From: Candidatus Hydrogenedentota bacterium
GTDB lineage: Bacteria > Hydrogenedentota > Hydrogenedentia > Hydrogenedentales > JAJRTN01
DNA length: 64,000 nt
NCBI GenBank assembly: GCA_024278275.1
Contig: JAJRTN010000017.1
Coordinates: 1-64,000, forward strand
Direction: 5' to 3'
Shown here one piece after another: positions 39,002 through 62,352 of this stretch; the stretch's first letter is position 1, and the number at the start of each line of letters is the position of its first letter. Both the position numbers and the translations under genes were made by a program. A model generated the notes under the pieces. It saw nothing but the letters and a program-made list of their open reading frames with translations, was not told the origin of the DNA and searched no databases.

Positions 39002-39128
39002 AAGGGAGGGGCAGGCATGTTTCCGGGACCCTTTGTACAGAACTTCACGGGAAGGGACGAATGAAAAGGGGAATGGCAGGAAAAAGCGTTGGCCCCCTTT
39101 CAGCTTATCCGCGGCGGGGTGAATGCCG

Positions 39129-40418
39129 ATGAAAATCGTTCACATCGTGCCCGGCACGGGCGGCACCTTCTATTGCCAGAATTGCCTTCGCGACATGGCG
39201 CTGGTCGGTGCGCTCCGGCGCCGGGGGCACGACGTGATGGTGGTGCCCATGTACCTGCCCGTCCGGGTGGACGATACGGAACTCGGGGGCGACACGCCCA
39301 TCTTTTTCGGCGGCATCAACGTGTACCTGCAACAGACGCTGGGCCTGTTTCGCCACACACCACGCTGGATTGACCGGCTCCTTGACGCGCGCTGGCTTCT
39401 GCGCCGGGCCGCGCGGCGGGAAGGCTCAACCCAGGCGGTAAGCCTGGGCGCCATGACCCTTTCCATGCTCCATGGCCGCGACGGACTTCAGCGAAAGGAA
39501 CTCGACCGGCTGACCCATTGGCTGGCAACACACGAACGGCCCGACGTGGTGCATCTCTCGAATTCACTGCTCATCGGTCTGGCGGGACCCTTGTCCGACC
39601 GCCTTGGCGTGCCCGTCTGCTGTGCCCTGCAGGACGAGGACACCTGGCTGGATGCCATGCACCCCGAAGACAGCCGCCGCTGCTGGGAGGCCATGGCGGA
39701 GAAGGATGAAGATGTCGCGGCGTACGTGGTGGTGAGTGATTGGTACGCCCGGCAAATGCATGAACGCATGGGCATCGCCGACAGGCAACTGCATCGCGTG
39801 CATATCGGTTTGGACCTCGCCGGGTTTGAGGCTTCCCCGCTGCCTTTCGAACCGCCCGTCATCGGGTTCCTCTCGCGCATGGGCAAGGCCCAAGGGTTGG
39901 GAGAGCTGGTGCATGCCTTCATGGCGCTCAAAGCGAAGCCCGAGTTCAAGGAACTCAGGCTTCGGGCCACGGGGGGGATCACCGCCCTGGACCGTCCGTT
40001 TGTACAGGGGCTCAGGGATAGGTTACGGGCCGCCAACATGCTCGACGACGTGGATTTTCTTGAGCATTTTAACGACGCGGACCGCCGCGCCTTCCTGCAG
40101 ACGGTTTCCGTACTCTCCGTGCCGGTGCGAGAGGGGGAAGCTTTCGGCACCTACATCATCGAGGCCCTGGCCTCAGGGGTTCCCGTGGTGCAGCCCGATG
40201 TGGGCGCCTTCCCCGAGTTGGTGGAGACCACGGGCGGCGGGCGCGTCTATGATCACACCCGGCCGGATGGGCTGGTGGATGCGCTGGCCGCCCTCCTGCT
40301 CAACCCCGGTGAAGCAGGGCAACTCGGACAACGGGGCCGCGCGGTGGTGCTTGAACGTTTCACGGCGGATGCCATGGCGGAACGGGTGGAGCGGGTCTAC
40401 GAATCGGTGTGCCGGTGA
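39129..40418 (+). CDS. Glycosyltransferase family 4 protein
   Basis: 429 residues. An ATG at 39123 is possible, but the GGGG ribosome site fits 39129 better. N-terminal Rossmann half: MKIVHIVPGTGGTFYCQNCL. Linker and C-terminal half: IGFLSRMGKAQGLGELVHAF, LEHFNDADRRAFLQTVSVLS and the nucleotide-sugar motif EGEAFGTYIIEALASGVPVV then QPDVGAFPELVE, i.e. the E-x7-E signature of GT4. It is a cytosolic retaining glycosyltransferase. Its stop overlaps the next start (TGATG), so it is cotranslated with a beta-propeller lipoprotein. Confidence 0.93.
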   Translation: MKIVHIVPGTGGTFYCQNCLRDMALVGALRRRGHDVMVVPMYLPVRVDDTELGGDTPIFFGGINVYLQQTLGLFRHTPRWIDRLLDARWLLRRAARREGSTQAVSLGAMTLSMLHGRDGLQRKELDRLTHWLATHERPDVVHLSNSLLIGLAGPLSDRLGVPVCCALQDEDTWLDAMHPEDSRRCWEAMAEKDEDVAAYVVVSDWYARQMHERMGIADRQLHRVHIGLDLAGFEASPLPFEPPVIGFLSRMGKAQGLGELVHAFMALKAKPEFKELRLRATGGITALDRPFVQGLRDRLRAANMLDDVDFLEHFNDADRRAFLQTVSVLSVPVREGEAFGTYIIEALASGVPVVQPDVGAFPELVETTGGGRVYDHTRPDGLVDALAALLLNPGEAGQLGQRGRAVVLERFTADAMAERVERVYESVCR

Positions 40419-47372: not shown

Positions 47373-48179
47373 GTGGGGAAGGTTCCGGGCAGGTATCTTG
47401 AGCGTCCCATCTGGGCGACCATGGAGCGTGACGACAGCGAAGCCATGCGTTACCGCGTTGCCTGCGCGGAGCGGGGACGTCCGCTGTCGGAAAACGACGG
47501 CCGTATCGCGGCGCTGAAGGATGTGCATCGGGGTCGGACGGCGTGGCTGCTGGGCAACGGTCCCAGTGTGCGCGTGGCGGACCTGGAACGGCTTTCCGGG
47601 CGTGTAAGTTTCGGCTGTAACCGGCTTTACCTGGCCTACCCGGACATGCGCTTCCGGCCGACCTACCTCTGTTCCACGGACCTTCAGATGATTCGCGATT
47701 TCGGGAAAGAGATGCTGGAAGCCCATCCGGGCAAGGTACTCTTCGTCTCGGAAACGCCGCCGGACCTGGAGGGGGATTTCGTCTGGTTCCCCTGGGGCAG
47801 CCGCACGCCGCTGGAGTTTTCCGACAATGTGTATGATTTCGTCATGCCGGGGGGTGGCACGCTGATCACGGCCATCCAAATCGGCTTTTACATGGGTATT
47901 ACCCGGTTTTATATCTACGGCATGGATCACAACTTTGTTTACCGGACCAACGAAGCCACGGACGACCATTACGCGAAGGCGGAAGGCGACGGCAACCATT
48001 TCATCAAGAATTACCGTTCCGGCAAGGCCTGGGCGCCGCCGGTGCTGTGGCAGGTGGAAGGGGCCTTGCTCAGCGCGCACCTTTTCTTACAGTCCCACGG
48101 CGGCTGGCTCAGAAACGCAACGCGGGGGGGAAAACTCGAGGTGCTCGAACGGGTGGATTTTGATGATGTGGTGGGTTGA
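47373..48179 (+). CDS. MptE/DUF115-like protein, possible glycosyltransferase
   Basis: 268 residues from a GTG at 47373, with AAGGGAG about 10 bp upstream. The nucleotide-binding-like motif is RTAWLLGNGPSVRVADLERL near residue 55, followed by SFGCNRLYLAYPDMRFRPTY. The second half has GGTLITAIQIGFYMGITRFY, IYGMDHNFVY and an end motif LRNATRGGKLEVLERVDFDD. The same motifs recur in the C-terminal half of the protein at 56219. The family covers MptE-like and Maf (DUF115) proteins and resembles GT42-type transferases. First of five same-strand genes. Confidence 0.8.
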   Translation: MGKVPGRYLERPIWATMERDDSEAMRYRVACAERGRPLSENDGRIAALKDVHRGRTAWLLGNGPSVRVADLERLSGRVSFGCNRLYLAYPDMRFRPTYLCSTDLQMIRDFGKEMLEAHPGKVLFVSETPPDLEGDFVWFPWGSRTPLEFSDNVYDFVMPGGGTLITAIQIGFYMGITRFYIYGMDHNFVYRTNEATDDHYAKAEGDGNHFIKNYRSGKAWAPPVLWQVEGALLSAHLFLQSHGGWLRNATRGGKLEVLERVDFDDVVG

Positions 48180-48236
48180 ACGACCCGGTCGCCCCGTCGG
48201 GCCATTTCGCCCCGCCTCGCCATGGAGTAAAAGTTG

Positions 48237-50093
48237 ATGCAGTCCATTTCGGTCGTAATCCCCACACATAACCGGCTGCCCGTGTTACTGGAGGCGTTGC
48301 GCTGCCTCGCGGGGGGCAGCGAGATGCCCGACGAGGTTATTGTGGTCGATGACGGTTCGGAGGAGCCGGTACAGCCGGCGGTGGAGGCGGCCGATTTCGG
48401 CTTTCCCTCGCTCCGGGTCATCCGCTTTTCGCCGGGCCGGGGCGCTCCGGTGGCGCGCAACGAAGGGGCGCGTGCGAGTACGGGCGATATTGTTGTCTTC
48501 ATGGATGACGATCTGCTGCCGGATGTGAACATGGTGCGCTACCACCGGCGGATTCATGAAGCCCATCCCGCGCCGAATTACGGGGTCATGGCGCGCATCT
48601 ATTTCGATCCCGACCTGCCGCGCACGCCCCTCATGCACTACATCGAGGAATACGGCTATTTCACGGCGGTCAGCAAAGATCCTGACCGCACCCCCGTGCT
48701 GGACGGGTTGATCAGTGCCAATTTTTCCATGAAGCGGGCCTTCATGGAGGGGCGAAGCAAGCTCTTCGACGAGAACTTTCCTCACAACCGCAACGAGGAT
48801 ACGGAGTTCGGGGTGCGCATGGTGGCCGAGGGCTGGGACCTGCACTATCACATCGCGCCGAGCAGCCGCCATCATTCCCCCCTGGACCTGGATACCTTTT
48901 TCAGGCAGGTGCGCCAGGGCGGCTTCTCCAAGGCCTATTGGTCCCTCGCCGCGCCCGATGATACGGGCTTTTGCCTTTGCCTGGGAGAATGCGCGAAACG
49001 CAAGCTGCGGGAAGTCGAGATTACCGCGCTCATCGGGCAATACCGCGAGGCCTTCGGGGAAGCGCTTATCACCGGCGACATGGACCACTGTTCCCCGGTC
49101 GAGTTCGACAACTTCCGTTTCTTTGTCCGCAATGCCATGGCCTGGGTGCAGGATATTGGCCAGATGGATGGCTGGTGCGAGCGGGTTCCCGTCGTGCGGG
49201 ACATGCTGGATGACTTGGCGGAAGCCTTCGATGCGAAAGACACGGATGAACGGTTGACCCACCTCACGCGCGCCCATGACCGGGATCCCGCGTTCCTGCC
49301 CATGGCCGTGCTGCTGAGCGATGAACTGGGCGGGGCGGGTTACCTGGAGGAGGCCCGAAAGGCCCTGGTCCCGGTTGCCGGCAGCCTGTGGGTGAAGCTT
49401 CGCATGGCCGAACTTGCCGAAGCATTGGGCGACCTTGAGACCTGTTGGCGCAACGCACGCATGGTTTACGACGGCACCGCGGGCGGCAATGGCGTCCAGT
49501 GGGAACAACGCCGCCGGGCGTCGGAAATCCTCACGCGGCTGGAGGCCACGGACTGTTTCGACATTGCGTGGGCGAGAAGCGTTTGGACGGCGCTGGGCGC
49601 GCGCGATTTTACCTACAACCGCCAGTGGGTCTACACGCTTCACCGTGCGTTGAAACGCCGCGGCCTGTTGCCGGAGAACGAAACCGTGTCGGGCCTGTTG
49701 GAGCGAATGAGCGGCATTCACACCTGCAACAAGGTGTTGAAGGCTTTAAACGGGGCCGCGGAATACAAGGCGCCGCAACGGATAACGCCGTCGGTCACGC
49801 CGCCACCGCCGCTTCGTCCCGAACGGGCCGTGGACAAGGTGATTGGCAAACGCCTGGCGGGCGAGGTGACCTGGTTCACCCCGGAGAAGCGTTTCGGCTT
49901 TGTCCGCATGGACGGCACGGATCTTATTGCCTTTGTTCACTACCGGCACGTGAAAGTGCCCCGGTTTGCGTACTTTGAGCCCGGGCAACGGCTCACGTTC
50001 ACGGTTCACGAAACGACTATTGGACTGGAAGCGCGGGACATACGCCCCGAAGAAGGCCCTGAATCCAATGGCAATGCCGGACCCACCGCGTGA
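48237..50093 (+). CDS. GT2 glycosyltransferase with TPR-like middle and C-terminal cold-shock domain
   Basis: 618 residues. The ATG at 48237 is favoured over a TTG three bases before. GT-A fold of family 2: ISVVIPTHNRLPVLLEALRC, EVIVVDDGS, PVARNEGARAS, IVVFMDDDLLPD (D-D-D) and HNRNEDTEFGVRMVAEGW (E-D). A helical, TPR-like stretch covers ~330-480. Residues 538-604 form a cold-shock domain: AGEVTWFTPEKRFGFVRM (RNP1-like) and LIAFVHYRHVKVPRFAYFEP (RNP2-like). A nucleic-acid-binding domain on a glycosyltransferase is unusual; here it may have been adapted to bind something else. The next gene starts within 27 bp. Confidence 0.9.
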   Translation: MQSISVVIPTHNRLPVLLEALRCLAGGSEMPDEVIVVDDGSEEPVQPAVEAADFGFPSLRVIRFSPGRGAPVARNEGARASTGDIVVFMDDDLLPDVNMVRYHRRIHEAHPAPNYGVMARIYFDPDLPRTPLMHYIEEYGYFTAVSKDPDRTPVLDGLISANFSMKRAFMEGRSKLFDENFPHNRNEDTEFGVRMVAEGWDLHYHIAPSSRHHSPLDLDTFFRQVRQGGFSKAYWSLAAPDDTGFCLCLGECAKRKLREVEITALIGQYREAFGEALITGDMDHCSPVEFDNFRFFVRNAMAWVQDIGQMDGWCERVPVVRDMLDDLAEAFDAKDTDERLTHLTRAHDRDPAFLPMAVLLSDELGGAGYLEEARKALVPVAGSLWVKLRMAELAEALGDLETCWRNARMVYDGTAGGNGVQWEQRRRASEILTRLEATDCFDIAWARSVWTALGARDFTYNRQWVYTLHRALKRRGLLPENETVSGLLERMSGIHTCNKVLKALNGAAEYKAPQRITPSVTPPPPLRPERAVDKVIGKRLAGEVTWFTPEKRFGFVRMDGTDLIAFVHYRHVKVPRFAYFEPGQRLTFTVHETTIGLEARDIRPEEGPESNGNAGPTA

Positions 50094-50119
50094 AGGCGCG
50101 GGAAAACGGGGAGAGGCCG

Positions 50120-53100
50120 ATGATGAGTATTGCGAAAGGGCTGCGGAAGTTTGCCGTGGCCGTGATTATGTCCAACAAGATTACCCGGGGCATACAGCGC
50201 CGTATCGCGCTCGATGACGCCTGCCTGGAGAGCCTCTTCACCCACACTTTGTTCCCCCGTCGTCTCACGCAAAACGATTCGCTCTGGGACGTATTCGTCC
50301 GTACCGTGCGCGGTCCCCTCGTGTTCCTGAGACTTTTCCGCGCCCTTTGCGCCGACGACCGCGCGGCCGAACATGCGCTGGAAGACCGGCGTTTTCTCGC
50401 GCGCCTGCTGCGCCTGTTGCCTCGCAGGCTGCGGGAAGATGAAGCACTGTGGAAGGCCTTTACCGGGCTGTTAATGACGCCGGGGTTGTTTCTCAAGTTG
50501 TTCCGCCTCTTCTGTGCCGACGACCGCGCGGCGGGGCATGCCCTGGAGGACCGGCGTTTTCTCATCCGCGTGATGAGCCTGTTGCCCCGGCGGCTCAGGG
50601 AGGACGAATCTCTCTGGGACGCCTTCATGGGGATGGTGATGAAGTCCACCCTGTATACGCGGGTGCTTCGTGCGCTGTTGAAAGATGACCGCGCGCTGGA
50701 CTGCATCCTCGACGACCGGGAACTGGTGGAACGAATCGCGGGCAGCCAGCGTTTCGAGGAAATTGTTTTCGGGCTGGAGCCGAGAGCCTTCGGCCCGGCG
50801 GACCTGTCCTCCACCGGGAAAAACCTGGCCGCGAAGCTGGCGGAATCCCCCCACCTGCTTCCACGATTGGCGTGTTCTCCCCGTGCTGCCGAGGCCCTGC
50901 TCAACGAACCCGGCCTGCTCGCGCTGGCGCGTTTGCTGGAGACCGACCGGGCCGTGGATCTCATCTGCACCGAGGAGGACGTGCTGCGCCGGGTACTGGC
51001 GAATCCCGCGGCCCTGGAGGCGTTGACCGATGATCCGGCGTTGCTGTTGCCCTTCCTGAAGTCGAACCCTCTTTTCAACGCCATCCTGCAGCATCGTCCC
51101 TTGCTTCAGCGCATCGTCAACAGCGGAAAGGCGCGCGAGCGCATTGTGAGAACACCAAAACTGGTCGAAGCCCTGGTCGCCACCCCCGCTTTTACAAAGG
51201 CCCTGGTGAAAGTGCCGGAAGCACTGCACCGCGTACTGTCCAGCCCGGTCGCGCTGGATACCCTGGTGGGTGACGATGCGTTGCTGGAACGGGTGCTGAG
51301 CCGCCCGGACCTGCCGCCGAAGGTGCTGGCCCACGGGGCGTTGTCCGAGCGTTTGGCGGGCGATGATCGGCTCCTGGACCTGGTCGTCGCCCGGGAGGAT
51401 TTCCCCGCGCGCCTGGCCGAGCGGGCCGACGCGGCCCTGTGGCGGAGCCTGCTGTCGCCCGATTCCGTGATGGCGGCGTTGGCGGCCAACGCCGATTATG
51501 TCAAGCGTCTTGCGGCTCAACCGGCGGCCCATGCGACACTCACCGGCAACATTCCCTTTATGAAACGGGTTCTGGCGGAGGGCCAGGTTTTTGGCCTTTT
51601 GCTGAACGATGATGAACTGCTCGACCGGTTGGTGAAACACGAACGGACCCGGGATCGTATCACGGAGAACCGGGTCCTCTTGCGCCGGTTGGTCACGGGA
51701 ACAGCGGGCGTGCAGGAGGCCCTGTCTGAGCGGGCACACCTGCTTCGCCTGCTGGACACCAAGGCGGCCCGGGACGCGCTGGCCAACACGCCGGACCTGC
51801 TCCAGGGATTGCTGGGCGATTTGGCGGTCTTCGCGCGCCTGGCGGAAGATGATGACTTCGTGAAGCGCATCGCGAAGGATGATCGCGCGGTTCAAACCCT
51901 TTCGGGCAACGTGCCCTTCGTGCGCCGGCTCCTGGGCGAAGCGAAGGCTTTTGGTGTCGTACTCAATGATCCCGAGATCCTTGCCCCCATTCTCAGGCAC
52001 CCCAAGGCCGTGTCGGCGCTCCTCGCGGACCAGCCATTGTTGCGCGATCTGTTGCGGCGCGAACCGGTGAGTGCCGTTCTCCTCAGTGACGGGGAAAGAC
52101 TGCATCAACTGCTGGACACCCGGGAAGTTCGCGGTCTGCTGGCGAACACGCCCGACCTGCTCGAACGGATCTTGAACGATGACGGTGTTTTCGGGCGCAT
52201 CGCCGAGAACGGCAAACTGATGAAGCGCCTGGTCAAGGAATCCGCCGTGGTGGACACCTTGGCCGGAACACCCTCTTTTGTACGGGTCTTCCTCGAAGAG
52301 GACCGCGTTTTCGGCGCCCTCCTCAACAGCGAGACCATCCTCGGGCGCGTGGTTCGGCACGCCAAGGCGGGTGAGGTCATCCGGTCGGCCAAACCGCTCC
52401 TGAAGTCGATCACCGAGAGTGACGCGGGCGTGGCGGCCATCCTCGACAACACCGATCTGCTTACCCGCCTGACCGACAGTCCTCCTCTGCGGAAGCACCT
52501 GGCGCGACAGCCTGAATTGTTGGCCCGGTTGTTCCGTGACAGCGAGGTGTTCCCGGTGATCGCGGCGGATACGGCGTTTGTCAAGCGCCTCGCCAAGGAG
52601 GACACCGCCCTGGCGGTCCTGGCGGAAAACGTGCCCTTCCTGCAACGTCTGCTGCGGGAAGACCGGGCGTTCGGCGTGATGCTCAACGAGCCGGAGGTTC
52701 TTGGCCGCGTGGTGCGTCACGAACGTGCGCTCGAATGGATCGAGCAGGACCCCGCGCTGCTTTGCCGCATTGCCACGGGGGATGCCGGGCTGGCGGTTGT
52801 TCTTTCCAGCGTGCCCGCCATGACCCGGATTCTCGAAGCCCCTTCGCTCCGGGCCTGTCTCGCGGCGCAACCGGATTTGTTGATTGGACTGGTGAATGAG
52901 CAGGCCGTGTTCGCCACGTTGACCGGCCGGCCCGACTTCGTGAAACGGCTGGCTAAGGAAAAGGCTTCGCTGACCGCGCTGGCTGGAAACGTGCCTTTCC
53001 TGCGCCTTCTGCTGAACGAGGACAAGGCCTTTGGAACCCTGCTCAACGAACCGGAGATCCTCGGGCGGGTGTTGCGCCACGAAAAGACGCTGGCCTGCCT

Positions 53101-55999
53101 GGAAGACGATCCCGGTCTGCTGCGCGCCATCGTGGGCCGCCCGGCGGCCCGCGCGGCCCTGCTGTCCAGTCCGGCAGGCCTGGCGGAACTGCTCGATACC
53201 GAGCCGGTGCGGACGCATCTCGCGGGTCAACCGGCGCTGTTGTTGAAGACGGTGGGGGACGCGGCGGTATTTCATGTACTGTCCGGGGATGCCGATTTCG
53301 TGAAACGTTTGGCAAAGGCGGAGACCGCGCTGGCCACGCTGGCGGAGAACCCGCCCTTCCTGCGCCTTCTGCTGAACGAGGACAAGGCCTTTGGAACCCT
53401 GCTCAACGACGCGGAGACCCTGGGCCGGTTGCTGCGTCACGAAAAGACGCTGGCCTATTTGGAAGGCGATCTGGGCCTGCTGCGCGCCGTCGTGGGCAGT
53501 CCGGCGGGCCGGACGGCGCTGCTCTCCAGCCCGTCGGTCCTGGCGGAACTGCTTGACACCGAGCCGGTGCGGACGCTTCTCGCGGGTCAACCGGCGCTGC
53601 TGTTGAAGACGGTGGGGGACGCTGCGGTATTCCGTGTATTGTCTGGTGATGGAGACTTTGTGAAACGTTTGGCGAAAGCGGAGACGGCGCTGGCCACGCT
53701 TGCGGAGAACCCGCCCTTCCTTCGCCAGTTGCTGGCGCAGGACCGGGCTTTCGGGACCGTGCTCAACGATGCGGAGACCCTGGGCCGGTTGCTGCGTCAC
53801 GAAAAGACGCTGGCGTATTTGGAAGGCGACCTGGGCCTGCTGCGCGCCATCGTGGGCAGTCCGGCGGGCCGGACGGCGTTGCTTTCCAGCCCGTCGGTCC
53901 TGGCGGAACTGCTCGACACCGAGCCGGTGCGGACGCTTCTCGCGGGTCAACCGGCGCTGCTGTTGAAGACGGTGGGGGACGCCGCGGTATTCCGTGTATT
54001 GTCCGGTGATGGTGACTTTGTGAAACGTTTGGCGAAAGCGGAGACCGCGCTGGCCACACTGTCGGGCAATCCGCCCTTTGTTCGTCAACTCCTGGCGCAA
54101 GATCGGGCTTTTGGAGTCGTGCTCAACGAAGCGGAGATCCTGGGGCGGGTGCTCAATCATGAACGGGCACGGACGGCCATCGCGGAGCAGGGCGCGTTGC
54201 TGCGGCGAATCGTCGAGGACGAGCGGGCCACCGCGACCCTGCTCAACGACGCGGCCTGGCTCACGGGCGTCATGCGTTCCGCCCAGGTGCTTCGTTTACT
54301 CGCCGGCGCGCCTGATCTTCTTTTGCGCTTGACCAATGACAACGATCTTTTCCGCCTCCTCATGGGCGACGACGGTTTCGTGAAACGCCTCATGCGGGAC
54401 GATCACCTTGTGAGCGTGGCCGCCGGCGACGCCATCTTCGCGTACAAGTTCCTGGGACAGGTGGACATTGTCGGGCGCATAGCCCGGGAACCCATGATCG
54501 TGGGGGCGCTGCTCTCGGATAAGACCTTCCACGAATCCGCCACCCGGGACAAACGTTTCATCCGCCGTTTCGCCTCCCACGGCGATGTTTTCGAGGCGCT
54601 TATGAGCAACGGCGATTTCCGCCGTAGGGCGGGCGCAGACCGGCGGATGCTGGCGCAGTTGCTCGCCACGCCCGCCAGTGTGAAGGCGCTGGTGAGTGAC
54701 GACCGTGCCATCGATTTCGTCGTGGGACAACCCGCGGCCTTCGTGAAAACCGTTACGGGTCGGGGGCGCCTGTCGAAGCTCTGTGGCGAACAGGGCCTGT
54801 TGGCCCGCCTTCTGGGCCACGAGGGCGTGCGCCACCGTATTGCCCGGGAGAATGCCCTGTTGGGACCCCTCGTGAGCGACACCCGGCTCTGCGATGCCAT
54901 CGCCGAAACGCCAGTCTTCCGGGGCCGCCTGTTTGAGAACGAGCGGGTCATGGACAGCATCGTCACGGACGGCCGGTTGCTTCGCCACGAAAGCGTGCGC
55001 AACCACTTGCGCGCCACCCTGGCCTTCAGCCGCGCTTTCGAGTCGCTTCGTCCCTATCTGCCCGCCGACCTGCCCGATTTGCCCCAACGCATCAGCAAGG
55101 CGCGGGCCAAGCTCGACGACGATAAGGGTGTGCCCGAGGCCATCCTTAAGGTGATGTGCGACCGAAACACGGTGGTGCTCGCGCCGAAGCCCTTGCGTTT
55201 CCCCGACAAGGAGGCGCTCTGGACCTGTATGCAGGAAATCCTCATGGCGGAGGAGTACTACTTCGAGGCCGAAAGCGACACGCCCCGCATCCTCGATTGC
55301 GGCGCGAACTTCGGCCTGGCCGTCCACTACTTCAAGCGCCTCTACCCCAAGGCCCGTATCACCGCCTTCGAACCCATCCCGCGTATCCGCCGCATGACGA
55401 AAAAGAACATGGCGGACAGTGGCTACGGGGATGTGGAAATCCTGCCCTACGCCTTGTCCGACCAGGCGGGCAAGGCACGGTTTCTTGTGTCGAAAACCTA
55501 TGCGCTGGCCGGTTCGCTCACGGAGCGCCGCAAAGAGGCGGGGGACGCGGTAGAAGAGATCGTGGTGCAGTGCCGCACCCTCGGCGCTTTCCTCGAAGAG
55601 CCGGTGGACTACCTGAAACTGGATATCGAGGGAAGCGAGGACGTGGTGCTGGCCGAGGCACGGCCCCTCCTGGGTAACGTGCAGCACATCTTCTGCGAGT
55701 ACCATCACGGCAGTGGTTTGGCCACCGACCGGTTGGCCCGCATCCTGGATCTGCTGGACGAGGAGGGCTTTGACTGCCACGTGAGCAAGTCGGTCACTTT
55801 CTCCCAATCCTCGGCCCGGCGTCCCATGAACTTCGTGCGCCGCCCTTATTCCGCCGTCCTGTGGGCCAAGGCGCGGGACTGGACGGAAGGCCGGCGGCGA
55901 GCCGCCGCCTTTCTGGCGAAACAAGGCAAGGCGGCCGAGGCTAAGCGTGCCCCGAAAGCAAAAGCAAAGACGAAGAGAACGAACAAAGTAAAGGTGTAG
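50120..55999 (+). CDS. Giant leucine-rich helical-repeat protein with C-terminal FkbM methyltransferase
   Basis: 1,959 residues from ATG 50120 (ATG 50123 equally possible; GGGGAGAGG at 50108). A GTG at 50090 would overlap the GT2 stop. N-terminal part: 55-residue repeats (LEDRRFLARLLRLLPRRL type) over residues ~30-220. Middle: ~24-residue helical repeats to about residue 1,630, grouped by five into a 120-residue unit; GDFVKRLAKAETALATL-like anchors occur every 120 residues nine times from residue 459. C-terminal ~1,720-1,900: FkbM methyltransferase, with ILDCGANFGLAVHYFKRLYP (SAM motif), ITAFEPIPRIRRMTKKNM and VDYLKLDIEGSEDVVLAEA. The tail is Lys-rich (APKAKAKTKRTNKVKV). No signal peptide or membrane segment. 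Likely a cytosolic alpha-solenoid scaffold carrying an O-methyltransferase for a glycan. Confidence 0.93.
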   Translation: MMSIAKGLRKFAVAVIMSNKITRGIQRRIALDDACLESLFTHTLFPRRLTQNDSLWDVFVRTVRGPLVFLRLFRALCADDRAAEHALEDRRFLARLLRLLPRRLREDEALWKAFTGLLMTPGLFLKLFRLFCADDRAAGHALEDRRFLIRVMSLLPRRLREDESLWDAFMGMVMKSTLYTRVLRALLKDDRALDCILDDRELVERIAGSQRFEEIVFGLEPRAFGPADLSSTGKNLAAKLAESPHLLPRLACSPRAAEALLNEPGLLALARLLETDRAVDLICTEEDVLRRVLANPAALEALTDDPALLLPFLKSNPLFNAILQHRPLLQRIVNSGKARERIVRTPKLVEALVATPAFTKALVKVPEALHRVLSSPVALDTLVGDDALLERVLSRPDLPPKVLAHGALSERLAGDDRLLDLVVAREDFPARLAERADAALWRSLLSPDSVMAALAANADYVKRLAAQPAAHATLTGNIPFMKRVLAEGQVFGLLLNDDELLDRLVKHERTRDRITENRVLLRRLVTGTAGVQEALSERAHLLRLLDTKAARDALANTPDLLQGLLGDLAVFARLAEDDDFVKRIAKDDRAVQTLSGNVPFVRRLLGEAKAFGVVLNDPEILAPILRHPKAVSALLADQPLLRDLLRREPVSAVLLSDGERLHQLLDTREVRGLLANTPDLLERILNDDGVFGRIAENGKLMKRLVKESAVVDTLAGTPSFVRVFLEEDRVFGALLNSETILGRVVRHAKAGEVIRSAKPLLKSITESDAGVAAILDNTDLLTRLTDSPPLRKHLARQPELLARLFRDSEVFPVIAADTAFVKRLAKEDTALAVLAENVPFLQRLLREDRAFGVMLNEPEVLGRVVRHERALEWIEQDPALLCRIATGDAGLAVVLSSVPAMTRILEAPSLRACLAAQPDLLIGLVNEQAVFATLTGRPDFVKRLAKEKASLTALAGNVPFLRLLLNEDKAFGTLLNEPEILGRVLRHEKTLACLEDDPGLLRAIVGRPAARAALLSSPAGLAELLDTEPVRTHLAGQPALLLKTVGDAAVFHVLSGDADFVKRLAKAETALATLAENPPFLRLLLNEDKAFGTLLNDAETLGRLLRHEKTLAYLEGDLGLLRAVVGSPAGRTALLSSPSVLAELLDTEPVRTLLAGQPALLLKTVGDAAVFRVLSGDGDFVKRLAKAETALATLAENPPFLRQLLAQDRAFGTVLNDAETLGRLLRHEKTLAYLEGDLGLLRAIVGSPAGRTALLSSPSVLAELLDTEPVRTLLAGQPALLLKTVGDAAVFRVLSGDGDFVKRLAKAETALATLSGNPPFVRQLLAQDRAFGVVLNEAEILGRVLNHERARTAIAEQGALLRRIVEDERATATLLNDAAWLTGVMRSAQVLRLLAGAPDLLLRLTNDNDLFRLLMGDDGFVKRLMRDDHLVSVAAGDAIFAYKFLGQVDIVGRIAREPMIVGALLSDKTFHESATRDKRFIRRFASHGDVFEALMSNGDFRRRAGADRRMLAQLLATPASVKALVSDDRAIDFVVGQPAAFVKTVTGRGRLSKLCGEQGLLARLLGHEGVRHRIARENALLGPLVSDTRLCDAIAETPVFRGRLFENERVMDSIVTDGRLLRHESVRNHLRATLAFSRAFESLRPYLPADLPDLPQRISKARAKLDDDKGVPEAILKVMCDRNTVVLAPKPLRFPDKEALWTCMQEILMAEEYYFEAESDTPRILDCGANFGLAVHYFKRLYPKARITAFEPIPRIRRMTKKNMADSGYGDVEILPYALSDQAGKARFLVSKTYALAGSLTERRKEAGDAVEEIVVQCRTLGAFLEEPVDYLKLDIEGSEDVVLAEARPLLGNVQHIFCEYHHGSGLATDRLARILDLLDEEGFDCHVSKSVTFSQSSARRPMNFVRRPYSAVLWAKARDWTEGRRRAAAFLAKQGKAAEAKRAPKAKAKTKRTNKVKV
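50213..50780 (+). repeat. 165-bp (55-codon) tandem repeats
   Basis: The codons for ADDRAAEHALEDRR start at 50351, those for ADDRAAGHALEDRR at 50516 and those for KDDRALDCILDDRE at 50681, exactly 165 bp apart. LPRRL/LW-A/D-F units show the same spacing. A degenerate copy precedes at about 50213. In frame throughout. Confidence 0.85.
51420..54500 (+). repeat. 360-bp (120-codon) tandem repeats, nine copies in exact register
   Basis: The anchor codons of the (D/G)-x-F-V-K-R motif fall at 51494, 51854, 52214, 52574, 52934, 53294, 53654, 54014 and 54374: eight intervals of exactly 360 bp with no indel. Each unit holds five 24-codon subrepeats. Copies at ~53300-54100 are nearly identical in DNA, implying recent duplication or gene conversion, while the outer copies are diverged. 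Confidence 0.92.
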
Positions 56000-56000
56000 C

Positions 56001-56044
56001 CTCGCGGTGCGCGGTGGCCGGGGACGGCCACCCCATCGCGCGAG
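56001..56044 (+). terminator. Long hairpin after the giant gene
   Basis: Inner stem GGTGGCCG-GGGA-CGGCCACC (56013-56032) inside outer arms CTCGCG (56001) and CGCGAG (56039-56044). There is no U tract, so it may attenuate rather than stop transcription into the next gene, 175 bp on. The rest of the 219-bp gap shows nothing else. Confidence 0.5.
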
Positions 56045-56218
56045 ACGGATGTAAAGCTGTCCGGGGGGCGTCTCCGGGCACCGTGAGGCCGTGAATGACT
56101 GTGTAAAACGAAAGGCCCAAAATGTTTCCCCGCCGCCCCGTGGTGGCGCGTGGGTTGAAGGACATAGGATCTGTTCGCGGCGGCGTGGGCGGAGTGGGGC
56201 GGGAAAGGTGTAGTGTTT

Positions 56219-58240
56219 ATGCACATTGTATCGACCATGGACGATGTTGGTGTCGGCGAGTACCTGACCCTGGTGCGCAGCATCCGCGCCCACGGCGGTG
56301 GCATACCCCGCCTTAAAGTTATCGCGTTGACCGGTAATGTGACGGCGGACTCGATGAAACGGGTGCGGCAGGTGGCGGATGAAACCCGTCCCTTCGCGAC
56401 CTTTGCGTCTTACAGGCGTTACGACGCCTTCGGCGATGGCCTGGGGCATCCCCTGGGTAAGTTCGCCAAGCTGTTTTTCGCGCTGGAGTATTTCAACGAG
56501 AACACGCCGGATGACGAAATGGTCATGTTTCTCGACCCGGATGTTTACGTGCAGCGGCCCCTCCGGCAGTTCGTCAAGTTCCTGGATGACGACGCGCTGC
56601 TTTTCGGTCACGAAATCCAGCATTCTCACCACATGGCCAGGCCCAACGCACGCCTGAAAGTGGCGCACTATTTCGATGATCCCGGCGGCTGGTGGGCCAC
56701 CTATGTGACCGAAATTAACACGGGGGTCATTCTCGGCCGGGCGGCCACCTTCAAGCGGATCATGGGAGACTTCGAGAACTTCGTTCTCAAGTCGGACTAC
56801 TTCAAAAAGGCCATGCCCCGTGCCGGGGGCGCCCGCTGGCACGACCAGGATTTCTTCCGCTATTTCTACCGCAAGACCATGCGTACCGACATTGGCGTGC
56901 TCGACCTGGAGCAGATCTTTACCACTACCCGGGGCGCGGCGAAATGCCTTTACTTCGATATGAAGCGCAACCAGTACCGTACCGTCTGGGGGGCCACGCC
57001 CTTCGTAGTCCATTTCGCCGGGGGCACCCTCGGCAAGATTCCCCGCAAGCCTCCCGTGGACGAGACGCCCGCGCCCACACCCCCCGTGCTTTCCGCGGCG
57101 CCCGCCACCACGCACCACCTCGCCTACGTGGCGCAAGCGGATGACCCGGTGCTGGAGCACTGGATCGCCCGGCTGCCGCGCGACGAGAAGGTGTCCCTCC
57201 TTGTCGCGCCCGACGCAGGCGACACCGACGACCTCCAACGGCGTTACGAGGGTGTGTCACGGTCCTACGCGCTGGCCCATCCCCCGGAAGACGACGCGTC
57301 CCTGGATCAACTCAAGGCTGTCATGAGGGAAGTGCGTCCCCACGACGTGGTCCTGCCGTCGGGTCTCGATGCGCGGGAGATCGAGTTCCTGCCCGGTTAC
57401 CGCATGCCCGACCTGCGCCCGCTCTACCCGGCCGTGCGCGGCCTGTGGCGCGCGGGCGCGCGTCGCTTCCGCCTGCGCACCTTCGCGGGCTCCGTCGATA
57501 TGGACATTCCCTGGCTGCTCGACGGCCTGGTGAACCGCCACCAGGGCAAGCGCTGCTTTGTCGTCGGCAACGGTCCCAGCCTTAACGACCTGGACATGGG
57601 GTTGTTGAAGAACGAGATTACTTTCGGCTCCAATCGCTGCTACATGGGCTACGAACAGTGGGGCTACGGGTTTACCTATTGGGGGTGCATGGATCGTTTA
57701 CAGGTGGAGAAGTACGCCCTGGAATACGAACGAAACGTGCCTGAAGACTGTATCAAGCTCTTTCCCTTCGAATACATGCCGCTGTTTCGCTTCAAAAACG
57801 CCTGCCCCGTGAACCTTAACTACGAGTGGCGGCCCCCCTACCGTTTTTCCGGCACGCCCGGAGAATTGTTTCTCGGCTTTACCGTGACCCACATGCTGCT
57901 CCAGACGGCCGTGATCATGGGGTGCAATCCCATCTATCTCATCGGCGTGGATCACCGTTACAACCTGTCCAGCGCCCCCGAGAAGAAGCGAAAGATCGGC
58001 AAGTCCAACGCCGAACTATGGGTCGCCGGCGACGCTGCCAAACCGACCCATTTCACCAGCCAATACACCGGTGGCGCGCCCAAGGAGTTCGTCAAGCCCC
58101 GTCCCGAACGGGCCGAGGCCTGTTTCGAGGTTGCCAACACCTGGGTTCGGGACCATAGCCTGAAAATCCTCAACGCCACGCCCGGCACCGCCCTCACGGC
58201 CTTTCCCCTGGTGGATTTCAACAGTCTTTTCCCAAAGTGA
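56219..58240 (+). CDS. GT8-like glycosyltransferase fused to an MptE/DUF115-like domain
   Basis: 673 residues; ATG 56219 (a GTG at 56213 is possible) after GGGAAAGG. N-terminal ~1-280: GT-A fold of nucleotide-diphospho-sugar transferase type, with FALEYFNENTPDDEMVMFLD then PDVYVQRPL (D-x-D-like motif DPD), INTGVILGRAATF and RWHDQDFFRYFYRKTM. A variable middle of ~150 residues follows. From ~440: KRCFVVGNGPSLNDLDMGLL, TFGSNRCYMGYEQWGYGFTY, FTVTHMLLQTAVIMGCNPIY, LIGVDHRYNL and NATPGTALTAFPLVDFNSLF, the same family as the gene at 47373. A bifunctional glycan-assembly protein is the likely role. Confidence 0.85.
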   Translation: MHIVSTMDDVGVGEYLTLVRSIRAHGGGIPRLKVIALTGNVTADSMKRVRQVADETRPFATFASYRRYDAFGDGLGHPLGKFAKLFFALEYFNENTPDDEMVMFLDPDVYVQRPLRQFVKFLDDDALLFGHEIQHSHHMARPNARLKVAHYFDDPGGWWATYVTEINTGVILGRAATFKRIMGDFENFVLKSDYFKKAMPRAGGARWHDQDFFRYFYRKTMRTDIGVLDLEQIFTTTRGAAKCLYFDMKRNQYRTVWGATPFVVHFAGGTLGKIPRKPPVDETPAPTPPVLSAAPATTHHLAYVAQADDPVLEHWIARLPRDEKVSLLVAPDAGDTDDLQRRYEGVSRSYALAHPPEDDASLDQLKAVMREVRPHDVVLPSGLDAREIEFLPGYRMPDLRPLYPAVRGLWRAGARRFRLRTFAGSVDMDIPWLLDGLVNRHQGKRCFVVGNGPSLNDLDMGLLKNEITFGSNRCYMGYEQWGYGFTYWGCMDRLQVEKYALEYERNVPEDCIKLFPFEYMPLFRFKNACPVNLNYEWRPPYRFSGTPGELFLGFTVTHMLLQTAVIMGCNPIYLIGVDHRYNLSSAPEKKRKIGKSNAELWVAGDAAKPTHFTSQYTGGAPKEFVKPRPERAEACFEVANTWVRDHSLKILNATPGTALTAFPLVDFNSLFPK

Positions 58241-58307
58241 AACGTGCGAGGAAACATCACCCGGCGCCGGTTGATGCACCCGTTGTGAGAAGTGAAGGGA
58301 TCCCATT

Positions 58308-59624
58308 ATGAAGCCGCTCAATGTTCTCTACATCCATTCCCATGACACGGGTACTTATATTCAGCCCTACGGTCACGCCATACCCACCCCGAACCTGCAA
58401 CGACTGGCGGAAGAGGGCGTGGTATTCCGAAGCGCCTTCAACGTGAACCCCACGTGCTCGCCCAGCCGGGCCGCCCTGCTCACGGGCCAGTACCCCCACC
58501 AAAACGGCATGTTCGGCCTGGCCCATCGTGGTTTCAGCCTCAACGATTCATCGCGCCACCTGGCGGGTTTTCTCCGGCGTAACGGCTACCACACGGTGCT
58601 GGCCGGGGTACAACACGAGACCATGGGTACGCCGGAGAACCTCAATGCCCTGGGCTACGCGGAGCACCACCCTGACCACCGGAGCGCCGTGAAGTTCCTG
58701 GAGGGTAAACCGGAGAAACCTTTCTTCCTTGCCGTGGGTTTCATGGAAACCCACCGCGCCGCGCCGCCCGACGTGGAGGACTTTTTCCGGGACGAGGAGC
58801 CCTCCGACAGTCGTTTCGTCCGGCCCCCCGCGCCCCTGCCCGACACCCCGGTGACCCGGAAGGACATGGCCCATTTCATCGCCAGTGCCCGGACGCTCGA
58901 CCGCAAGATGGGCGAGGTCTTCGACGCACTGGAGACCTCGGGCCTCGCGGACAACACGCTGGTCATCTGCACTACCGACCACGGTATCGCCTTCCCGAGA
59001 ATGAAATGCAACCTGGAAGACGACGGCACCCGGGTTTTCCTCATCCTGCGGGGACCCGGGGGCTTCCGCGGCGGCAAGGTGGTGGACGCCCTGGTGAACC
59101 ACCTCGACGTGTATCCCACGGTGTGTGCCCTGGCGGGACTCGAAGCCCCGCCCTGGCTCGAAGGGAAATCCCTCGTTCCCCTGGTGGAAGGCGAAACGGA
59201 GGAGCTGCACGACACCCTTTTTGCCGAGGTCAATTATCACTGCGCCTTCGAGCCCATACGCGCCGCTCGCACGGCCCGGTGGAAATACATTCGCCGCTTT
59301 GAACCCCGCCCGGGGCCCGTGCTGTGCAACACGGATCGTTCCCCCAGCAAGGCCCTGTGGATAAGGCACGGCTGGCCCACCATGGCCCCCGCCCAGGAGG
59401 CGCTGTACGACCTCGTCTTCGACCCCCACGAGCGCAACAACCTGGCCGACAGCGTGGCACATGCCGGGGTGCTCGACGACATGCGCGGCCGGCTCATGGG
59501 CTTCATGAACGACACGGAGGATCCCCTTCTCAAAGGGGGCATTCCCCATCTGGATAGCTACCAGGTCAACAGCGCGGATGATGTGGACCCCCAGGATCCC
59601 ATGCTGCCACCGGGCCAACGGTAA
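58308..59624 (+). CDS. Sulfatase (type I, formylglycine-dependent)
   Basis: 438 residues, no clear signal peptide. N-terminal metal site LNVLYIHSHDTGTYIQPYGH; formylglycine motif NPTCSPSRAALLTGQYPHQN with Cys50 as the residue to be oxidised (C-x-P-S-R); VICTTDHGIAFPRMKCNLED as second metal site. It resembles N-sulfoglucosamine sulfohydrolase/heparan-type sulfatases. AAGGG precedes the ATG. It is the last of five same-strand genes before a terminator, so it may act on the sulfated glycan made by this operon, or on a scavenged one. Confidence 0.93.
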   Translation: MKPLNVLYIHSHDTGTYIQPYGHAIPTPNLQRLAEEGVVFRSAFNVNPTCSPSRAALLTGQYPHQNGMFGLAHRGFSLNDSSRHLAGFLRRNGYHTVLAGVQHETMGTPENLNALGYAEHHPDHRSAVKFLEGKPEKPFFLAVGFMETHRAAPPDVEDFFRDEEPSDSRFVRPPAPLPDTPVTRKDMAHFIASARTLDRKMGEVFDALETSGLADNTLVICTTDHGIAFPRMKCNLEDDGTRVFLILRGPGGFRGGKVVDALVNHLDVYPTVCALAGLEAPPWLEGKSLVPLVEGETEELHDTLFAEVNYHCAFEPIRAARTARWKYIRRFEPRPGPVLCNTDRSPSKALWIRHGWPTMAPAQEALYDLVFDPHERNNLADSVAHAGVLDDMRGRLMGFMNDTEDPLLKGGIPHLDSYQVNSADDVDPQDPMLPPGQR

Positions 59625-59641
59625 AAGGAGCGGTTTTCCGG

Positions 59642-59671
59642 GGCGTGGAAACAGGTTTCCTTGCCTTTTTT
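59642..59671 (+). terminator. Intrinsic terminator closing the glycan operon
   Basis: GGC-GT-GGAAAC-AG-GTTTCC-TT-GCC followed by TTTTTT, starting 18 bp after the sulfatase stop. The remaining gap to 59954 holds a GGTTTCCA/TGGAAACC inverted repeat near 59863-59893 and no gene. Confidence 0.6.
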
Positions 59672-60197: not shown

Positions 60198-60546
60198 TTC
60201 GTGGTCTGCCCAGGTTAAGCGTTCCCGGAATTCGGGCGGGTGCGCATCGCTCCTGATGCCTGTATCTCCGGAATGATGCACGGTCTGTTTCATGGTAAAA
60301 ACAGGGCCTTCAGGGGGGCGGGGCGGCTTGCATCGCGAACGAACCCATGGGATATCCTGCTGCCCCCCGGATGCGGTAAGGGAGGTGTGGCGCCCTGCCG
60401 TATGCGAAGCGGTTGGATGCCGCTTCTGTTCTAGGCCGTGAAGTTGTTGTTCAAGGTTCCATTAACGCATGGGCAACCGTCCTCATGACGCCCCGGCCCA
60501 TTCCCTGTGAAACGCCGCTTTCGTGGGAATGGCGGTGGGTGGTGTT
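60198..60546. other. Gap with REP remnant upstream of the GT-C-like gene
   Basis: ACGCCGCTTTCGTGGGAATGGCGG near 60502-60525 is a degraded copy of the CGCGTTCGCGGGAATGACGG element at 38980-39001. Potential GTG/ATG starts at 60523 and 60529 lie within it, which argues for a later start of the next gene. Nothing else recognised. Confidence 0.5.
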
Positions 60547-62352
60547 ATGGATTTTCCGTTGCCGGTGCCTAATTCTCTGGAGATAACATCGCCGGTGAAT
60601 CCGTCTGAATTCCACATGTCCAGTGGTGCGGGCCATGCCCGCGCCTATGTACGGGTGTGCTGTGTTGCCGCGCTCATCGGTGTGGCCACGTTGGGCTTGG
60701 GCTTCTTTTCCGACGATTTTCTGCACCTGGCCACCATCGACGGGCGGGACACCCCCGCCCACTCGAAGTGGAATCTCTTTACCTTTGCCGATGGCAACCC
60801 GGCCCACATGCGGCATCAGCAGTCCACCGGACCCCACCCGTGGTTTGCCCTGCCCGCACTCAAGATGCACTTCTTTCGTCCCCTTACCAGCGCCACCATG
60901 GTGATCGACCGTGCCGTATTCGGAGACTGGGCGCCGGGCTACCATCTCCATTCCGCCCTCTGGTACCTGGCTCTCGTGGCCGTGGTCATGCTGCTTTTCC
61001 GAAGCTGGCTGCCCGGCGGGGCGGGCGTGCTCGCCCTCCTCCTCTTCACCATCGACGAGGCCCACGCGATTCCCCTGGGGTGGTGGGCCAATCGCAACGC
61101 CCTGGTCGCCACGGTTCCCGCCCTGCTCGGGCTCCTGGCCCACCTGCGCTGGCGGGAACGGGGCTGGCGGCCCGGGCTGCCCCTGTCCCTTGTGGGCTAT
61201 ATCGTCGGATTCCTCGGCGGCGAAATCGCCTTGGGCGTTATGGGGTACCTTGGCGCATATGAACTCATCGCGGCACCCGGCCCGTGGCGCAAGCGTTTCA
61301 CCGCGCTGCTTCCCGCCGCTACGCTCTCCCTGGTCTATCTCTATCTTTATGGTCTGGCAGGGTTCGGCGCCTACGGTTCCCGGGATTACATCAACCCGCT
61401 TCGAGAGACGGGCGTGTTCCTCGCCCACTTTCCGGACCGTTTCCTCGGCATGGTGGGCAACCTCTTTCTGAGTTTTCCCCCGGAAGGTCATGTGCTGCTG
61501 AGCCGCCTTCAGTGGGGACTGGTCGCTGTTGCCATCATGGTCCCGGCCCTCCTGCTACTCCGATCCCGAATGTCGGCCGAAGAACGCCGGGCCTTGCCGT
61601 GGCTCCTTCTCGGCGGCCTCATTGCCGGGATCCCCACGCTGGGGGCCGCACCCTCCGCACGGCTTTACATGCTGCCTTCCATTGCCGCCGCCGCCGTCAT
61701 CGCGGTCGTCCTGCGCCACACGTGGGCCATGGCCTGGTCGCGCCGGAATGTCCTCTGGAAAACACTGCTCCTGCTTTTCGGTTTTTTCCACCTGCTCCTG
61801 GCGGGACTCTTCTGGCCGCTGGCCCTGGTTGCCATCAGCCTTCTCACCAGCGGCCACGCCGCCTCGGCACGATCTTTCGAATCACGATGCGATATCGCCG
61901 GGAAAGAGGTCATCCTGCTCACCGCGCCTGACCTGCTCTACACGGTCTATTTCCCTTTCCAGCTCAGCAAGGACCGTCTTCCCGCCGCGTGGTGGGCCAA
62001 CACCCTCTCACCCTACGACAAACGCATCACGCGCACCGCGCCCAACGAGTTGGAAGTCGAGTTGATTGGTGATGATGTATTGCCTCGGGGCATCGAGCAC
62101 GTGCTGCGCAGCACCCGGTTTCCCTTCGTGAAAGGCGACGAAGTGGCCGTAACGGGCATGACTGTGCGCGTGCTCGAAACGGAGAACGGGGGCGTGCGGA
62201 AGTTCCGAATGACCTTTGACGCGTCCCTGAACGACGCGCGCTACCGCTTTCTCGTCTACGACGCTTCCCTGCCCGGTTTCACCTTCACGTCCCCCCCCGC
62301 ACTCGGCGAACATGTCGATCTGGAGCGGCAGTATCTGCCATCATTGTTCTAG
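60547..62352 (+). CDS. Polytopic membrane protein, probable GT-C-type glycosyltransferase
   Basis: 601 residues from the ATG at 60547; an ATG at 60616 is also possible and the N-terminus is uncertain. About ten membrane helices; the first is RVCCVAALIGVATLGLGFFS, immediately followed by SDDFLHLATIDG. An acidic pair in the first periplasmic loop is typical of GT-C transferases that use lipid-linked sugars. A short conserved-looking loop is FFRPLTSATMVIDRAVFG, and a soluble ~100-residue tail follows the last helix. It is similar in plan to PMT/ArnT-like or O-antigen-related proteins; substrate unknown. It lies just downstream of the glycan operon. Confidence 0.75.
   Translation: MDFPLPVPNSLEITSPVNPSEFHMSSGAGHARAYVRVCCVAALIGVATLGLGFFSDDFLHLATIDGRDTPAHSKWNLFTFADGNPAHMRHQQSTGPHPWFALPALKMHFFRPLTSATMVIDRAVFGDWAPGYHLHSALWYLALVAVVMLLFRSWLPGGAGVLALLLFTIDEAHAIPLGWWANRNALVATVPALLGLLAHLRWRERGWRPGLPLSLVGYIVGFLGGEIALGVMGYLGAYELIAAPGPWRKRFTALLPAATLSLVYLYLYGLAGFGAYGSRDYINPLRETGVFLAHFPDRFLGMVGNLFLSFPPEGHVLLSRLQWGLVAVAIMVPALLLLRSRMSAEERRALPWLLLGGLIAGIPTLGAAPSARLYMLPSIAAAAVIAVVLRHTWAMAWSRRNVLWKTLLLLFGFFHLLLAGLFWPLALVAISLLTSGHAASARSFESRCDIAGKEVILLTAPDLLYTVYFPFQLSKDRLPAAWWANTLSPYDKRITRTAPNELEVELIGDDVLPRGIEHVLRSTRFPFVKGDEVAVTGMTVRVLETENGGVRKFRMTFDASLNDARYRFLVYDASLPGFTFTSPPALGEHVDLERQYLPSLF

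Follow-up and report, generated by a model that had tools for sequence, protein, structure and literature searches.

In a stretch of 64,000 nucleotides from contig JAJRTN010000017.1 of a Candidatus Hydrogenedentota bacterium (hereafter the window), five genes in the same orientation, which we call g1 to g5, probably encode machinery for a surface polysaccharide that depends on an ATP-binding cassette (ABC) transporter. The third gene, g3, is predicted to encode a giant protein formed by a long array of short-helix repeats and a C-terminal FkbM methyltransferase. By analogy with known enzymes, we consider the chances evenly balanced that g3 is a chain terminator that carries its own ruler for this polysaccharide. 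The open reading frames (ORFs), domains, and repeats, as well as the linkage of relatives to the exporter genes wzm and wzt, are read directly from the sequences; termination and measuring would follow from the analogy. The ORF listing of the window confirmed five same-strand ORFs at 47373-59624 (+), as a preliminary description of this DNA had proposed (Table 1). The host genome comprises 5.35 Mb in 200 contigs.

The repeat region of g3 contains approximately 140 ten-residue single-helix repeats, of which 120 are in unbroken register (residues 441-1640) and approximately 20 earlier units are in a shifted phase. Self-similarity of residues 1-1640 peaked at lags of 120, 240, 360, 20, and 40, with lag 10 also high, and the ten-residue periodicity was above all 50 shuffles of one set and all 100 of a second. 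When written in rows of twenty, each decad by eye has a hydrophobic segment about seven residues long and a short turn of polar character in which proline is frequent. The 3.4 copies of a 360-bp unit within this region are 87% alike, suggesting that the rod has recently grown by blocks of 12 units. Between the youngest of the duplicated 120-residue units, the ratio of nonsynonymous to synonymous substitution (dN/dS) was 0.18-0.22. In an AlphaFold2 model of residues 1081-1969 (14-row alignment, mean predicted local distance difference test score 76.8), each decad forms a single helix 5-9 residues long; at the predicted template modelling score of 0.47, the course of the rod as a whole is unreliable. 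Comparison of the rod with the PDB gave no convincing relative (Foldseek template modelling score by query length of 0.23 or less), which does not in itself make the fold new. A second structure search with the g3 model was taken up by methyltransferase matches. The C-terminus of g3 is an FkbM domain by Pfam PF05050 (58.7 bits with a cut-off of 22.7, E 1.1e-15) and by NCBIfam TIGR01444 (E 3.3e-23), and its fold matches 2py6 (Z 14.2, root-mean-square deviation (rmsd) 2.4, 165 aligned residues).

We searched 147 genomes with g3 and g4, and 40 neighbourhoods of matches were read first. A strong match to the FkbM domain (E 4.3e-68 or better) was found in 10 genomes besides its own. On the same stretch as the FkbM relative, seven of these 10 contain both wzm and wzt (G002, G026, G034, and G057), wzt (G015 and G038), or wzm (G007). 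The Wzt proteins of these loci have a carbohydrate-binding Wzt_C domain, which is over the cut-off in G034 and in a Wzt encoded on contig C22 of the host genome. Among 68 genomes of the same order, a Wzt_C match was present in every one of the 11 that encode the FkbM protein, compared with 24 of the full 68 (p 1.6e-6, kinship ignored). At one locus (L105) the gene upstream of wzt proved to be DprA-like and was rejected as wzm.

A scan of named genomes yielded 320 relatives, of which we analyzed the best 80 as a top tier of 15 with E 1e-40 or better and a lower tier of 65. Six of the top-tier loci repeat genomes of the first set and nine are new. In these nine loci from other phyla, wzm and wzt were present in four (Pirellulales, Nitrospinaceae, Marinicaulis, and Maricaulis) and were not in the locus in Butyrivibrio, Ciceribacter, Albibacillus, Desulfobacterales, and Phaeobacter. 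A long N-terminal extension (ORF of more than 360 amino acids) was found in all 15 top-tier FkbM genes compared with nine of the 65 lower-tier genes of the best 80, and DUF115 genes were present in six top-tier loci compared with none in the lower tier (p 1.7e-5). The long extension and the company of DUF115 genes set this top-tier FkbM subgroup apart.

The N-terminal regions of these proteins are generally periodic. Sixteen of 19 regions scored above all 100 shuffles, and in the remaining three (L106, L187, and L170) the score was reached by 4, 7, and 1 of 100 shuffles, respectively; four control regions had no periodicity in the same test. The strongest short unit was 10 residues in window g3, the G007 protein, both Nitrospinaceae proteins, and two sulfotransferase proteins. 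In other extensions it was 12 or 24 (several Hydrogenedentota), 23 (G015 and G057), 46 (Maricaulis), or 40 (Marinicaulis), and the Phaeobacter extension has a coiled-coil look by eye. Window g3 has the longest repeat rod among the proteins examined. Weak matches to the g3 repeats in G127 were WD-repeat proteins and were set aside as unrelated. Separately, several enzymes of the loci have in common a segment of the form 'GW...RPD...YP' (L183 12740-16204 and 10883-12610, L096 8878-10533, and L186 8471-10774) that by eye is perhaps a carbohydrate-binding module.

A second type of repeat protein ends in a sulfotransferase. In G008 such a protein (sulfotransferase domain, 47.6 bits) is encoded downstream of wzm-wzt, and when used as a query against the 68 genomes it gave a match in six. 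A 589-amino acid form is encoded directly after wzm-wzt in G057, and in G028 the C-terminal sulfotransferase part lies directly after wzt. In G023 a sulfotransferase fragment at a contig end is beside a 196-amino acid module like the N-terminus of g3, a full-length GT8-DUF115 gene, and a fragment of Wzm. The sulfotransferase version adjoins wzt or wzm in four of four clear cases, one of which (G008) is the query itself; a G046 match (58 residues, E 1.1e-4) and a match to the window's own repeats (E 2.8e-4) were not counted as clear. By sequence comparison, the repeat rods look as if they carry a swappable head that is either an FkbM methyltransferase or a sulfotransferase. We tentatively suggest, as an idea with somewhat less than an even chance of being right, that these proteins form a new class of ruler in which short-helix repeat rods (units of 10, or of about 12 or 23 in relatives) that lengthen by block duplication and bear an exchangeable capping head set glycan length beside Wzm/Wzt in several phyla.

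The mechanism that we propose is as follows. The operon would make a polysaccharide on the cytoplasmic side of the membrane and cap it, and an ABC transporter of the Wzm/Wzt type would export it. The products of g2 (GT2) and g4 (GT8) may extend or adapt the chain, and the DUF115 domains of g1 and g4 may add CMP-activated acidic sugars, with donors of the 3-deoxy-D-manno-oct-2-ulosonic acid (Kdo) or nonulosonate class. The FkbM head of g3 would methylate the growing chain end and thereby terminate it. The approximately 140 helices would keep a fixed distance between this head and the polymerizing enzymes such that only chains of sufficient length are capped, and Wzt would recognize the cap through its carbohydrate-binding C-terminus. 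The g5 sulfatase may edit sulfate on the same sugar or on a scavenged one.

Several observations weigh against a terminator with a ruler. In three of the 10 genomes (G001, G014, and G037) there is no wzm or wzt beside the FkbM relative, although in G001 the contig begins within the gene and all three genomes have a match of the Wzm/Wzt family on a different contig. The window operon is likewise not adjacent to wzm/wzt, with the host's own copies on contig C22. Specific enrichment of wzm plus wzt at the top-tier FkbM genes was not significant and is not claimed (seven of 15 versus 24 of 65 in the lower tier, p 0.34, best 80 of 320). The closest Pirellulales FkbM relative has almost no extension. 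A membrane-binding amphipathic N-terminal helix was unsupported, with a hydrophobic moment that less than 10% of shuffles attained in only three of 12 N-termini. The order of parts is reversed compared to the known terminator WbdD, with the spacer of g3 at the N-terminus and the enzyme at the C-terminus. Finally, the ten-residue period of the spacer, with a single short helix in every unit, is not that of a coiled coil, so we do not class g3 as a member of the WbdD type but only as working alike.

The same ABC-exported pathway could also use the repeats as a scaffold that gathers enzymes without measuring length. The Nitrospinaceae locus L183 has ten-residue repeats on two proteins, the FkbM one and a glycosyltransferase, G015 carries the N-terminal module of g3 on a DUF115 protein, and the unit length varies among relatives (10, 12, 23, and 46), all of which suit a scaffold. 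However, a scaffold would need neither 120 indel-free units nor a lone capping enzyme that is always at one end, and we consider it a rather unlikely explanation.

We examined the other enzymes of the operon. The g2 product matched GT2 (E 1.8e-23) and, at its C-terminus, a cold-shock domain (E 4.7e-9). Alone, g1 was below the Pfam cut-off for DUF115/PF01973 (13.9 bits, E 0.047), but it is homologous to the DUF115 domain of g4 (E 1.6e-10), which itself was above the cut-off as DUF115/MptE-like (42.3 bits). The Pfam GT8 family was not matched in window g4 but was matched in a full-length homologue, and the fold also indicates GT8: residues 1-276 aligned with WbbM (6u4b) with Z 16.2, rmsd 3.6, 222 aligned residues, and 14% identity, a score that many other GT8-like enzymes equal. 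Structure matches for g4 were taken up by this GT8 domain. A profile built from 25 relatives of g1 and g4 had CstII sialyltransferases as its best PDB matches (E 0.0015, over only about 30 residues), and on this basis the DUF115 domains of g1 and g4 look sialyltransferase-like. The domains given in the preliminary description were mostly right, with GT2 plus cold-shock domain matched in g2, the FkbM domain of g3, the DUF115 domain of g4, and the sulfatase over their profile thresholds, the DUF115 call for g1 below its cut-off, and GT8 in g4 recognized only by fold or through the homologue.

The exact five-gene set was seen in none of the 147 genomes searched with g3 and g4, with 40 neighbourhoods of their matches read first. 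The preliminary description had suggested conserved linkage in relatives as a check, the outcome of which is mixed: parts of the set recur in two of them. In G015 (contig C277) a DUF115 gene (50% identical to the g4 domain, with a g3-like N-terminus), a methyltransferase gene, an ortholog of g1 (68%), and a gene for a GT4-cold-shock domain-GT4 protein lie in one direction. In G023 the module of the type at the g3 N-terminus, GT8-DUF115, and Wzm are together. Beside g1, a glycosyltransferase therefore carries a fused cold-shock domain in two settings, once with GT2 (window 49857-50045) and once between two GT4 domains (L096 12660-12896). We found no description of such a fusion in the openly licensed literature.

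A surface polysaccharide or exopolysaccharide might instead be made without Wzm/Wzt, by a Wzx/Wzy or synthase route, with g3 merely methylating it. No transporter gene was recognized in the operon by Pfam or NCBIfam, the best model match of the g2 GT2 domain is an exopolysaccharide glycosyltransferase (far below its cut-off), and FkbM enzymes decorate many glycans. Set against these points, Wzm/Wzt stand beside the closest g3 relatives and beside the full-length g4 relative, and we regard such a route as improbable. The location of FkbM, sulfotransferase, GT8-DUF115, and DUF115 relatives beside Wzm/Wzt exporters agrees with the surface polymer that the preliminary description had offered as one of two guesses. 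The glycan, which it had left unnamed, can be narrowed to a probable ABC-transporter-exported polysaccharide.

The host genome contains only one close Wzm, which is encoded beside two Wzt genes on contig C22, and one of these Wzt proteins has Wzt_C over the cut-off. We infer that this would be the transporter used by the window operon. In this region (L164, G000:C22, 7755-11558) wzm is followed by two tandem wzt genes whose products are approximately 50% identical to each other; a 404-amino acid ORF there is in the wrong frame, and the true wzm is in another. Also on C22 (L095, 6831-10438) there is a SIS-CBS gene resembling arabinose-5-phosphate isomerase and a DAHP-synthase-I family gene that we read as kdsA, followed directly by a gene for a 410-amino acid DUF115 protein. 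The position of kdsA hints that this type of DUF115 protein may use CMP-Kdo. We rejected the pair as proof of a Kdo donor, with kdsA found by tblastn in no locus of the other genomes examined.

The other guess was protein glycosylation, in which Maf-like DUF115 enzymes would modify flagellin or another surface protein. DUF115/PF01973 is the core domain of Maf in the account given in excerpts of PMC11339370, the host is flagellated by its genome (eight flagellin matches), and in G037 the FkbM relative is approximately 5 kb from a flagellin gene. However, the same genome has adjacent genes on another contig (L094, G000:C139, 1-5279) for flagellin, a 740-amino acid MptE-like Maf (122 bits), and NeuB, and because of this separate cluster flagellin glycosylation is unlikely for the window genes. 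Across the 68 genomes the DUF115 family of g4 did not track flagellin (p 0.38). A flagellin match was absent from four of 18 genomes with DUF115 (G038, G051, G053, and G057) and from two of 11 with FkbM, some of these assemblies being incomplete. Nor is a flagellar gene near, as had been noted before: no flagellin or NeuB family was found among the 19 window proteins scanned. We rejected flagellin glycosylation as the principal explanation based on the separate cluster and the relatives without a flagellin match, and consider protein glycosylation as a whole to be very unlikely.

The spacing of g1 to g5 is, in order, 54 bp, a 4-base overlap of g2 and g3, 213 bp, and 67 bp, which replaces the gaps of 26-219 bp given previously and fits one operon without proving it. 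The intrinsic terminator said to close the operon would correspond to a hairpin with a T run at about 59647-59671, by eye with a 6-bp stem and 2-base loop or with 5 bp, a 4-base loop, and two G-C pairs. It is weak, and a terminator scan did not pick it up; the 15 terminators that the scan counted are at chance level (14.1 +/- 3.8). A promoter scan gave no site on the + strand and a single promoter-like site on the - strand (chance 2.3). The absence of a promoter or strong terminator, the wide g3-g4 gap, the failure to see the five-gene set in relatives, and the abundance of sulfatases in the genome would all suit a chance neighbourhood with g5 from elsewhere. By contrast, the linkages of g1, a cold-shock domain glycosyltransferase, and DUF115, and of the g3 module with GT8-DUF115, recur, and g2 and g3 overlap. 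It is extremely unlikely, in our estimate, that g1 to g5 are not one functional unit.

C-x-P-S-R is the type I sulfatase motif. The g5 translation contains CSPSR and matched PF00884 with 133.4 bits (cut-off 25), consistent with a type I sulfatase, and by eye it has no signal peptide. Because the genome holds 64 sulfatase-profile matches, the adjacency of g5 says little, and we rejected it as strong evidence for a sulfated glycan.

Table 1. Positions in the window of g1 to g5 and their parts
Feature	Position	Strand	Evidence
g1: stand-alone DUF115-like protein, 268 aa, GNGPS motif	47373..48179	+	ORF; Pfam E 0.047; 68% ortholog in G015; E 1.6e-10 to g4
g2, 619 aa: GT2 glycosyltransferase domain (residues 6-145) and, at the C-terminus, a cold-shock domain (542-604, ~49857-50045)	48234..50093	+	Profile matches
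g3, 1969 aa: giant protein, repeats followed by FkbM methyltransferase; candidate ruler-bearing chain terminator	50090..55999	+	ORF, profiles, periodicity, fold
g3 N-terminal module, residues 1-240	50090..50809	+	Also found by itself in G023; in G015, part of a DUF115 protein
Ten-residue repeats of g3, residues 241-1640 (phase constant over 441-1640)	50810..55009	+	Periodicity; predicted model of 1081-1969
360-bp unit (12 decads), 3.4 tandem copies, 87% alike	52932..54153	+	DNA repeat analysis
g3 FkbM methyltransferase domain, residues 1736-1895	55295..55774	+	Pfam; fold 2py6, Z 14.2
g4, 675 aa	56213..58240	+	ORF; Pfam DUF115/MptE-like
g4 N-terminal GT8-like domain, residues 1-277	56213..57043	+	Fold matches; Pfam GT8 in homologue
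DUF115 domain at the g4 C-terminus (residues 301-675); sequence profile GT42-like	57113..58240	+	Pfam; profile search
g5: type I sulfatase, 438 aa	58308..59624	+	ORF; profile matches
Weak hairpin then T run, possible terminator	59647..59671	+	By eye; absent from terminator scan

Other genes lie around the operon. A GT4 glycosyltransferase is encoded approximately 7 kb upstream (39123-40418, +) and may or may not share the pathway. Just after the operon is a gene for a 609-amino acid protein with no Pfam or NCBIfam match and a multi-pass membrane look by eye (60523-62352, +). Further away, a Ser/Thr protein kinase is fused to a PhoPQ-related domain (29064-31820, -).

In the systems covered by the excerpts of PMC11231755, the distal end of a long coiled-coil spacer carries the capping enzyme of a terminator such that only long chains are capped, and the carbohydrate-binding module of Wzt then admits the capped chains for export. 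WbdD, WbbB, ORF7-O4, and ORF6-O7 from E. coli and Klebsiella O antigens share with g3 the layout in which an enzyme, a capping one in these systems, stands at the end of a long helical spacer. In WbdD and ORF6-O7 the capping enzyme is a methyltransferase, as FkbM would be in g3, and the loci of the four known terminators contain wzm and a carbohydrate-binding Wzt (PMC11231755). By contrast, g3 is far longer, its spacer is built of ten-residue single-helix repeats, its head is FkbM rather than the methyltransferase-kinase of WbdD, and wzm/wzt are not adjacent to it in its genome. We found no description of FkbM-Wzt terminators or of alpha-helical-repeat polysaccharide rulers in the openly licensed literature; some elements of the proposal may nevertheless have been published already. 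In described systems of this pathway type the rulers are coiled coils (PMC11231755, in part), and if our proposal is true a ten-residue ruler would be a second, modular kind, the equal steps of which would make the ruler idea directly testable via the 120-residue blocks. Giant repeat-FkbM and repeat-sulfotransferase proteins, which would otherwise be annotated as hypothetical, would also gain a function, and the exporter of the product would be indicated.

The FkbM family (PF05050; 2py6) matches g3 in domain and fold, but in g3 the domain is fused to a 1,640-residue repeat region. WbbM from Klebsiella (6u4b) is, like g4, a two-domain enzyme with a GT8-like domain. To our knowledge, its other domain is not DUF115. 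WbbM serves an ABC-dependent O antigen (PMC11231755, in part). The Maf flagellin glycosyltransferases have a DUF115/MptE-like domain as do g1 and g4, and profiles of both reach CstII; the excerpts of PMC11339370 liken the central PF01973 domain of Maf to Cst-II and report that one Maf accepts CMP-N-acetylneuraminic acid (CMP-Neu5Ac) and Kdo. Compared to Maf, g4 has a GT8 domain in place of the flanking domains, g1 is a bare domain, and neither is beside flagellin. The logic of the pathway is known from these systems, whereas the type of rod, the order of head and rod, and the swapping of heads look new.

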